Positions 2,710-3,850 of a DNA stretch of 28,559 nucleotides are shown piece by piece. How positions within the stretch are numbered: position 1 is the first letter of the stretch; every line of letters begins with the position of its first letter. Below the pieces are notes generated by a model. It was not told the DNA's origin, did not search any database, and was given only the letters and a program-made list of their open reading frames with translations. Source of the stretch: a virus; IMG/VR virus record IMGVR_UViG_3300044825_000167, positions 1 to 28,559 of that record; one strand, written 5' to 3'. Made by a program: the position numbers and the translations under genes.

Positions 2710-2975
2710 TGCAAAACCCTCGGTGACGGTGGGCTTGGTGGTGACATTGGTACTGTATAGCTAGGTGTACCAACTGCCCATCCTTGCGGTGTAACAATTT
2801 GATTTGGGTAAACTGTAATGTTTTGCGTTACAAACCCACGATTGTCAACTATTTGAGCCTGATTACCACGAATTTGTACACTTTGAGAAACATTACCTTG
2901 CGGGTCAGTAATGACATAGGTTTGGGCAAAAACAGTATTCACGCCAAGCGTTAATAGTAATGCGATGTATTTCAT
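2706..2975 (-). CDS. Secreted small protein with signal peptide
   Basis: An 89-residue protein with a clear Sec signal: MKYIALLLTLGVNTVFA followed by Gln, with a likely signal peptidase I cut after VFA. The mature part is rich in Gln, Val, Pro and Thr, with short beta-type repeats (TYVITDPQGN, QIVDNRGFVTQ). It ends in a proline-rich tail (PSPPSPR). The ribosome site AAGGGGG is well spaced from the ATG. It is the first gene of the leftward operon after a long noncoding leader. Secreted early phage proteins may act in the periplasm, for instance in exclusion or envelope change, but no direct evidence is visible here. Confidence 0.6.
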   Translation of the reverse strand: MKYIALLLTLGVNTVFAQTYVITDPQGNVSQSVQIRGNQAQIVDNRGFVTQNITVYPNQIVTPQGWAVGTPSYTVPMSPPSPPSPRVLQ

Positions 2976-3115
2976 ATTTCCCCCTTTAAGTTGGTAATGT
3001 AATCGTAAGGCATTATCAACTTTTGTTTATTAGGACTTACCCTAATGTGACTTATACCACTCCCTTGGGCGGGAGCCCTTGCATGGGAGCCGTGTGCAAA
3101 AATGCGTTTTTTATC

Positions 3116-3151
3116 TATTTTTACTATATTTGTTATATATAAATATAACTT
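3116..3151 (-). promoter_or_regulatory. Possible leftward early promoter
   Basis: On the minus strand the AT-rich segment contains TATAGTAAAAATA. The first six bases are a good -10 element, and the same 13 bases occur at the rightward promoter at 3805-3817. The expected -35 position holds only AAGTTA, a poor match. The transcript would start near 3116 and give a leader of about 140 bases before the first gene of the leftward operon. Confidence 0.35.
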
Positions 3152-3160
3152 TTCCCTTTT

Positions 3161-3350
3161 GGTGAACGGACTTAGCCCATCCTAAATCCGCTTTCGTCTT
3201 TCCCTTTCGGAGCCACTAGACTTTCTCAGTCGTTCAACGCATCGGCACTAAGATTCGCCCACCGATTTGTATGCTATTACAGCGTTTATCCCCCAGTAGC
3301 ACTTGTATCGCAGTCGCTGGTGTCGGTTCCCGCCCAACTGTGACCGCAGA
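3161..3350 (-). ncRNA. Candidate structured RNA or replication-linked element
   Basis: The segment is GC-rich and free of good ORFs. A nine-pair stem at 3167-3175 / 3182-3190 with loop GATGGG pairs completely only as minus-strand RNA, where the single non-Watson-Crick position is U-G (it is C-A on the plus strand). A second minus-strand hairpin forms around 3311-3340, pairing CAGT-TGG with CCA-gcg-ACTG. These suggest a leftward RNA such as a structured leader or small RNA. A replication origin is an alternative, because the neighbouring 3095-3160 is very AT-rich. No known RNA family is recognised. Confidence 0.3.
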
Positions 3351-3354
3351 ATAG

Positions 3355-3442
3355 AAAAACCCATTAAGGTAGCTCTAAGGTGAAGTTGCTTAATAAATGC
3401 CCTTTAATCATTTACTAAACACTCAAAGCTACCCTAATGGGT
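3355..3442 (-). terminator. Terminator-like long hairpin after the HTH gene
   Basis: Two 16-base arms, at 3359-3374 and 3427-3442, are complementary in 15 of 16 positions (acccattaaggtagct against agctaccctaatgggt). In the leftward direction the stem ends in GGG followed by a run of five T, so it can act as an intrinsic terminator for the HTH transcript. The loop is unusually long (about 52 bases) and contains sequence able to pair with a segment outside the stem, which hints at conditional folding. Confidence 0.5.
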
Positions 3443-3486
3443 CTGCTAAAGGGCAAAACTAAACAGACTTCACTCTGCCCTTTTAG
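3398..3486 (-). promoter_or_regulatory. Competing hairpins (attenuator-like)
   Basis: Segment B (3446-3455, minus-strand TGCCCTTTAG) can pair either with A (3476-3486, CTAAAAGGGCA) or with C (3398-3407, TTAAAGGGCA). C lies inside the loop of the terminator-like hairpin. A second possible pair is GTGAAGT at 3467-3473 (minus strand) with ACTTCAC at 3380-3386. Mutually exclusive pairing next to a terminator is the hallmark of an attenuator, though no leader peptide is apparent. Confidence 0.35.
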
Positions 3487-3505
3487 TATAAAACAAAATT
3501 TTGCC

Positions 3506-3739
3506 CTATTGCAACTCAGGCCAAATTAAATGCCAAGTTTGGGGAAACATATCCTTACGGGTAACTAGCCCATGCGATTCTTTCTCGATTTGGGCGGCAA
3601 GTTCCATTAGTTTACTGGCGGGTAAGCCTTCGTTTTGCCATCGATGAACTGCTTGGGTTGTTACCTTGAATCTGCGGGCTATTTTGGCAGGGCCACCGCA
3701 TAAATGAATCATTTGTTTGGGTGTTAATTTGAAGTCCAT
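3506..3739 (-). CDS. Cro/CI-type helix-turn-helix regulator
   Basis: A 77-residue protein. The helix-turn-helix lies at about residues 14-36: CGGPAKIARRFKVTTQAVHRW, with the recognition helix TTQAVHRWQNEG. The following LPASKLMELAAQIEKES and the Trp-rich end (FPQTWHLIWPEL) are as in small Cro/YdaS-like proteins. There is no protease-sensitive or oligomerisation domain, so it is closer to Cro than to full CI. No Shine-Dalgarno precedes the ATG, and a good promoter ends seven bases upstream, so the mRNA is probably leaderless, as known for lambda cI from PRM. It is expected to bind the divergent control region and set early transcription. Whether this reflects lysogeny cannot be judged, as no integrase is visible. 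Confidence 0.8.
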   Translation of the reverse strand: MDFKLTPKQMIHLCGGPAKIARRFKVTTQAVHRWQNEGLPASKLMELAAQIEKESHGLVTRKDMFPQTWHLIWPELQ

Positions 3740-3746
3740 AAAAGTA

Positions 3747-3775
3747 ATTTTATAGTTAAGTGGCTATTTTAACAA
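3747..3775 (-). promoter_or_regulatory. Sigma-70-type promoter for the HTH gene
   Basis: On the minus strand, -35 TTGTTA (3775-3770) and -10 TAAAAT (3752-3747) are separated by exactly 17 bases. They match the consensus in 4/6 and 5/6 positions. Transcription should begin around 3739-3740, at or within a base of the ATG of the HTH gene. Confidence 0.6.
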
Positions 3776-3781
3776 AAAATA

Positions 3782-3810
3782 TTGCACACAGGTAAAAAAA
3801 GGTTTATAGT
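3782..3810 (+). promoter_or_regulatory. Rightward early promoter
   Basis: -35 TTGCAC (3782-3787) and -10 TATAGT (3805-3810) have a 17-base spacer. The -10 matches in 5/6 positions and the -35 in only 3/6, which would suit a regulated promoter. It lies back to back with the HTH promoter and drives the operon beginning at 3851. Transcription would start near 3817. Confidence 0.6.
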
Positions 3811-3817
3811 AAAAATA

Positions 3818-3831
3818 CCTGACTACTCAGG
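3818..3831. promoter_or_regulatory. Operator candidate, perfect palindrome
   Basis: CCTGA-CTAC-TCAGG is a perfect 5-base inverted repeat with a 4-base spacer, placed over the likely start of the rightward transcript. Partly overlapping it, AGGTA (3790-3794) and TACCT (3816-3820) form a wider inverted pair around the -10. Both positions are suitable for repression by the adjacent HTH protein. Confidence 0.45.
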
Positions 3832-3850
3832 CTAACTTATGGAGAAATTT

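Follow-up and report, generated by a model that had tools for sequence, protein, structure and literature searches.

A double-pseudoknot RNA with the shape of an intrinsic terminator as the apparent front part of noncoding RNAs in many freshwater phages

Results

The window analysed in this work is a whole virus stretch of 28,559 nucleotides (IMG/VR record IMGVR_UViG_3300044825_000167). A segment on its minus strand at 3346-3484, herein called RNA1, is, as far as sequence comparison tells, the front part of a fast-changing pseudoknotted noncoding RNA found in many freshwater phages. We favour, with evenly balanced confidence, the reading in which RNA1 is a promoter-proximal intrinsic terminator carrying a double pseudoknot and serves a phage noncoding RNA as its exchangeable head. 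The domain is delimited by an alignment of its relatives, named A1 below, and scores 137.8 bits with model R1, a value that follows by construction.

The original prediction had placed a structured leftward RNA with the shape of an intrinsic terminator behind an HTH gene, and both folding and covariation support it. In fact the minus strand from 3500 to 3340 folds at -62.2 kcal/mol, far more stable than shuffled sequences at -35 +/- 3.5 kcal/mol (z -7.84; 0 of 200 shuffles), while the plus strand folds more weakly (z -3.70) and its stem has no T-run behind it. All elements of RNA1 lie on the minus strand. Its rod consists of P3, with 22 pairs between a 5' arm at 3443-3422 and a 3' arm at 3379-3358, and of P4, with 12 pairs between 3421-3410 and 3398-3387, and it ends in UUUUU at 3359-3355; the stem of 16 bases followed by a T-run that had been described from the letters does exist, but its length was taken too short. 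Two segments of the 5' strand find their partners within this rod. S1 (3467-3473) is exactly complementary to S1' (3380-3386), the bulge that separates P4 from P3 on the 3' side, which is the additional 7-base pair recognised from the beginning, and S2 (3446-3455) pairs with S2' (3398-3407), which is the apical loop of P4 and therefore lies in the terminator loop as had been said. Since the helices use separate bases with a single overlap at 3398, S1/S1', S2/S2', P3 and P4 are compatible with each other as pseudoknots. One more short helix, P0, is formed between GCAGA (3478-3474) and UCUGC (3350-3346) behind the U-run.

Relatives were taken from two sources, namely 37 loci with a relative of the HTH gene and the occurrences of a 17-base pattern in viral contigs (at least 120 stretches). 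After motif filters there were at least 106 copies and at least 84 distinct cores, 82 of which were aligned as A1, the omissions being L149, whose 5' part is missing, and one core taken as a duplicate after trimming. All counts of loci and relatives given here are samples from among the matches listed. A1 was selected by a pattern fixing the end GGTTTTTCTATTTCTGC and by scripted motif filters, hence A1 overstates the conservation of the U-run and of P0; the divergent members L004, L010, L013, L024 and L026, and the divergent copies obtained with a separate pattern, stand outside A1.

Across the 82 aligned relatives among the matches listed, the sequence of RNA1 is highly variable while the layout is constant, running from a -10-like box through GCAG, S1, S2, the 5' arms of P3 and P4, S2', the 3' arm of P4, S1' and the 3' arm of P3 to UUUUU, which is followed by UCUGC in most of the relatives listed. 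When crossing brackets are allowed, 90.1% of the cells of A1 are paired, as against 38-55% with the partners slid by 1-3 columns, and the covariation score is 0.324 as against 0.132 after shuffling (0 of 500). Moreover, for S1, S2, P3 and P4 alike, pairing within a sequence exceeds pairing between sequences, and in each case none of 5000 permutations reaches the own value. S1 is paired in 96.7% of the cells with double changes in 7/7 pairs, P3 in 97.9% with double changes in 9 of 22 pairs, and P4 in 98.0% with double changes in 7 of 12; for S2, which A1 does not align correctly (45.4% of cells paired), a best-helix search was used instead. S1/S1' comes to 6 bp or more in 81 of the 82 relatives listed, in the form of 25 distinct helices, and S2/S2' does so in 76 of 82, with 50 distinct helices. 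The covariation controls preserve the column make-up and model relatedness only partly, and the counts of distinct helices are a stronger argument for the pairings than these controls. By such covariation, S1, S2, P3 and P4 go beyond chance, and RNA1 has the crossing and covarying helices of a pseudoknotted RNA. Near the base of P3, CCC/GGG is invariant (82/82 among the matches listed). A repeat acting as DNA only was rejected, since it is the RNA pairing that covaries. The permutations gave no support for a P1 hairpin around S1 (613 of 5000) and are uninformative for P0 (2584 of 5000), which has no testable variation in A1: 98.5% of its cells are paired with zero double changes, and its 3' end is fixed by the pattern. 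As a separate observation, the 44-kb contig IMGVR_UViG_3300047557_000594 carries two copies of the HTH gene with RNA1 (L005 and L006), which differ in their S1 strands.

Downstream of RNA1 on the same strand, the window has a copy of RF02932, the Betaproteobacteria-1 RNA (3220-3344; 71.5 bits with a gathering cut-off of 49.4; E 1.6e-11), which is the single match of the whole window to Rfam 15 at gathering level. It starts at 3344, 11 positions past the last base of the U-run, and RNA1 lies outside the 120-position model. RNA1 itself does not match this covariance model and has no Rfam family above gathering, the only hit being MIR1523 with 26.1 bits (gathering 96). In the portions of the literature that were accessible, we found neither an account of the RNA1 head nor a role for RF02932. 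RNA1-like heads precede RF02932 in many phage loci, and the same head is also found before other modules. Among the matches listed, the modules behind the 84 cores are 20 RF02932-like, 18 of type B, 32 of type C, 10 of type D and 4 of an HNH type; types were assigned by the first six bases and by eye, and of the 20 RF02932-like cases cmscan verified two, those of the window and of L042, while the remaining 18 were assigned by sequence. All these unlike modules join the head at one point, right after CTGC. In a comparison of eight relatives with Rfam at gathering level, L042 alone had a match, again RF02932; types B and D entered at gathering level only (L071 and L081), and one type C region gave sub-gathering matches only. 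A known ribozyme or intron was rejected as a candidate, with no such Rfam match at gathering level in the window and the eight relatives.

The other modules show some signs of structure as well. Compensated changes occur in 8 of 50 predicted pairs of type B (13 sequences) and in 14 of 26 of type C (32 sequences), both counted with no shuffle control, and single-sequence folds of the two modules are no more stable than shuffles (z -0.25 and -0.41), so that it is the compensated pairs that carry the claim of structure. An example of type D has a moderately stable fold (z -2.35). Further, in L029, L089 and L099 the second RNA is replaced by a gene for an HNH endonuclease (208-223 aa), joined after the same CTGC; one of the three copies matches Pfam HNH (2.9e-8), and a fourth locus, L011, shows only the start of the module on a contig that is too short. 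This gene may be a homing element targeting the RNA1 locus.

RF02932 is also found without an RNA1-like head. Of the 79 RF02932-core loci among the matches listed that fail a lax test for the head (given below), 45 have a TANRNT box before the body, although the motif is loose and the count uncontrolled. RF02932 occurs in 59 of 398 sampled genomes from the family of Paraburkholderia ferrariae. The RNA1 model gave 0 in 398 genomes of this family, which is weak evidence of absence under strict filters with few candidates per genome. Some Burkholderiaceae genomes hold RF02932 in several copies (L326-L345; L346, L347 and L350), and some of the Burkholderiaceae copies lie, by eye, near transposase-like or metal-transport-like genes and not near phage genes. 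The Rfam model of RF02932 looks too short by eye, as similarity continues past its 3' end and a closed hairpin is often present ahead of it.

RNA1 has a candidate promoter of its own. A sigma70-like pattern on the minus strand (-35 TTGCAA at 3514-3509, -10 TATACT at 3490-3485, spacer of 18 nt) scores 9/12 in a pattern scan, whose matches are no commoner than in shuffles and whose -35 match is at chance frequency. A -10-like hexamer, by comparison, is present in the 13 nt that precede GCRG in all 83 cores tested among the matches listed (83 of 83), being TATACT in 55 and TATAAT in 18 of them.

At the other end, the base of P3 is ACCC/GGGU and is followed by UUUUU, namely a GC-based hairpin with a U-run as in intrinsic terminators. 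Because the rod of P3 and P4 ends in five U, its shape is that of an intrinsic terminator, and most likely transcription terminates there. Five U follow P3 in 83 of the 84 distinct cores among the matches listed, a number that is largely fixed by the search pattern. An independent pattern within P3 and the divergent-class pattern yielded 40 distinct copies of RNA1; those long enough have, by eye, a T-run behind the stem, including the dissimilar stems of L004, L024, L314 and L319, and the end TATTTCTGC is kept in 28 of the 40, with 3 of the other 12 cut off. Among the matches listed, a stem of at least 20 pairs with a well-spaced T-run was found in 52 of 140 RF02932-core loci (0, 1 and 0 in dinucleotide shuffles), and one with a T-run in 52 of 52 type B loci (shuffles 0, 1, 0) and in 40 of 83 type D loci (shuffles 0, 0, 1), many of the remaining type D loci being chance pattern matches. 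A laxer test, with a stem of at least 12 pairs and an S1 score of at least 14, was passed by 61 of the 140 RF02932-core loci among the matches listed; we rely on the 20-pair figures, because the S1 cut-off of 14 is below the cross-locus mean of 14.5 and 12-pair stems appear in 5-11 of 140 shuffles. In the terminator-bearing RF02932 loci the S1 pairing has a mean of 18.2 for own partners versus 14.5 across loci and exceeds all 2000 permutations, and for types B and D the own pairing likewise exceeds the cross-locus pairing in all permutations (1000 each), again among the matches listed. A local hairpin ACCC-N4-GGGU in the 5' arm of P3 was rejected as a general antiterminator: the permutations gave it no support (689 of 5000), and by eye it is missing from relatives with other stems. 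Further downstream, a terminator scan restricted to loops of 3-8 returned no minus-strand site between 3344 and 2500; a later terminator may still exist, since this loop range misses RNA1 too.

The neighbourhood of RNA1 is that of an early phage region. Upstream lies a Cro/YdaS-like HTH gene (3506-3739, minus strand; Pfam YdaS 8.6e-10; PHROG transcriptional repressor 1e-11), whose match to P22_Cro (9.3e-6) is below the cut-off of that family; among the matches listed, 66 of the 89 loci looked at carry its protein cluster. The conserved gene order comprises an opposite-facing exonuclease operon, the HTH gene, RNA1, the module, small genes and a 124-aa gene, and in lambda the equivalent is presumably the stretch between cro and O. 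The exonuclease gene is of PDDEXK type with a PHROG exonuclease match, its operon also holding genes with no assigned function, and the 124-aa gene matches a PHROG replication initiation protein (4.2e-18). Protein cluster 0 has no Pfam match and a PHROG of unknown function, so a label as single-stranded DNA-binding protein is unsupported. In some phages, for instance L082, L059, L015, L046 and others, a lone extra gene stands between the HTH gene and RNA1, with a PAPS-reductase domain (5.3e-5), DUF5672 (3.1e-20) or no Pfam match. Among 50,697 phage records, no DNA similarity was found to 2950-3850 or to a module each of types B and C. Relatives of the exonuclease gene are present in 9 records of named phages; in one of them, MW202674, the early region showed, by eye, open frames and no RNA1-like RNA. 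A 17-base pattern in genome contigs gave 118 stretches, which look like chance.

Discussion

From the layout observed, we infer the following course of events. RNA1 would be transcribed leftward from its own promoter at around 3490 and would fold as the rod of P3 and P4, onto which the 5' strand docks twice, with S1 in the bulge between P4 and P3 and with S2 in the apical loop of P4. Most transcripts would then stop around 3355 and leave a compact RNA of about 125 nt, while a read-through fraction would enter the RNA body, which is RF02932 here, and P0 (GCAGA/UCUGC) would close the head. On this reading it is the RNA body that termination would gate, and a two-state switch on the protein operon would not be involved. 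Against this reading, a real terminator ahead of the RNA body would silence this body unless it is leaky or regulated, and we know of no regulator of RNA1 termination.

The main rival explanation, which is serious though unlikely in our judgement, takes RNA1 as the structural 5' domain of one long RNA, where the U-run is a linker from P3 to P0 and no functional termination takes place. P0 spans the U-run, and since it links the 5' end to sequence past this run, it suggests that the full-length RNA matters; by eye, matching changes occur in both of its strands in L026, L314 and L004. Moreover, in about 15 of 20 Burkholderiaceae copies of RF02932 a -10-like box is, by eye, directly followed by a short closed hairpin at the corresponding position, and the closing pairs vary (GCUGC/GCAGC, GCAACCC/GGGUUGC, GCAGUUC/GGACUGC), although the best hairpin found by script was of 22-27 nt and adjoined the body in 7 of the 20, being longer or elsewhere in the rest. 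As these hairpins beside a -10-like box precede RF02932 copies, they suggest that a closed head normally opens the body, RNA1 being the expanded phage form of this head. Some type D loci (L524, L545, L579, L582 and, less clearly, L551) also have, by eye, a head stem that is long and closed but lacks a U-run. However, a mere linker needs no T-run, whereas T-runs stand behind dissimilar stems far above the level of shuffles, and the body is also found without any such head.

It is improbable that RNA1 works by itself as a small trans-acting RNA, similar to short terminated phage RNAs such as the lambda 6S RNA, with RF02932 as a separate gene. The -10-like box of its own, the terminator shape, the constant layout and the fast change in sequence would all suit such an RNA, but the variable strands are paired internally and therefore offer no free target sites, and in the window the body follows the U-run after only 10 nt, too short a gap for another promoter.

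Originally it had been proposed that the segment 3446-3455 swaps partners as in an attenuator and thereby sets the read-through of leftward transcription into the operon at 1-2975, a proposal we find very doubtful. In the window this segment does pair exactly both with 3476-3486 and with 3398-3407, and the former, rival pairing is strong and present in the nested minimum-energy fold, in which pseudoknots cannot appear. Among the matches listed, however, the rival pairing reaches at least 7 bp in only 6 of 82 sequences (the window, L001, L014, L018, L102 and L154), four of which are the window and its close group, while it is S2/S2' that is kept (76/82); the two exclusive pairings are not both conserved, and the two-state switch is not supported in the relatives at large. 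The own value of the rival pairing is 5.0 bp as compared with 4.7 bp across sequences, and this slight excess, reached by 18 of 5000 permutations, can be explained by the close group of the window itself. In the family as a whole the rival pairing may well be due to chance. The partner switch is at most a trait of the nearest relatives of the window. As for the control of the operon, read-through into it is conceivable, but such a role is doubtful because RNA1 has its own -10-like box, because RF02932 or another module comes next, and because the operon has a palindrome of its own, TTAGG-N6-CCTAA (3030-3045), before the first gene of the leftward protein operon, exact in 18 of 26 regions, 22 of which are at least 700 nt long. 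Between RF02932 and the protein operon the minus strand also shows a further GC-rich inverted repeat, CTCCC..GGGAG (3060-3094), with a similar one in L013.

Finally, that RNA1 is a cis-acting antitermination RNA like put of HK022, or a recombination point at the level of DNA where modules are swapped, is hardly credible, for although it follows a cro-like gene and the modules, including the HNH one, change at one point after CTGC, the covariation of the pairings argues for selection on RNA, and the shape of a terminator is just what put does not have.

Several known systems resemble the favoured double-pseudoknot terminator head in part. The lambda 6S RNA, from the leader between pR' and tR', is short, has its own promoter and ends at an intrinsic terminator before further transcription; RNA1 is likewise a short phage RNA with a candidate promoter of its own and a terminator shape upstream of further sequence. 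However, lambda 6S RNA belongs to a late promoter and feeds protein genes, whereas RNA1 has a Cro-like gene before it and an RNA behind it; we know of no double pseudoknot in lambda 6S RNA. The put RNA of HK022 consists of two simple stem-loops and lets polymerase pass terminators; as a structured nascent RNA of a phage early operon near cro it is similar to RNA1, from which it differs by the terminator shape and the pseudoknots of the latter. Pseudoknot riboswitch attenuators are leader RNAs that combine a pseudoknot with a terminator shape, as RNA1 does; unlike in those, the conserved helices of RNA1 are compatible with the terminator stem, we know of no ligand, and the next unit in most types is an RNA instead of a protein gene.

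More broadly, and as a tentative suggestion in which we place less than even confidence, RNA1 could be a common form of the exchangeable head in a large and undescribed class of composite phage noncoding RNAs, in which four or more unlike bodies (RF02932 and types B, C and D) are attached, always at precisely the same point, to a hypervariable double-pseudoknot terminator head, and termination decides whether the body is made. If this is right, it would provide a handle on RF02932 at the level of mechanism, and many freshwater phages would carry tandem structured RNAs in their early regions that standard annotation has overlooked. Moreover, a pseudoknot-bearing terminator that persists while its sequence changes would offer a clean test case from nature for how tertiary contacts act on intrinsic termination.
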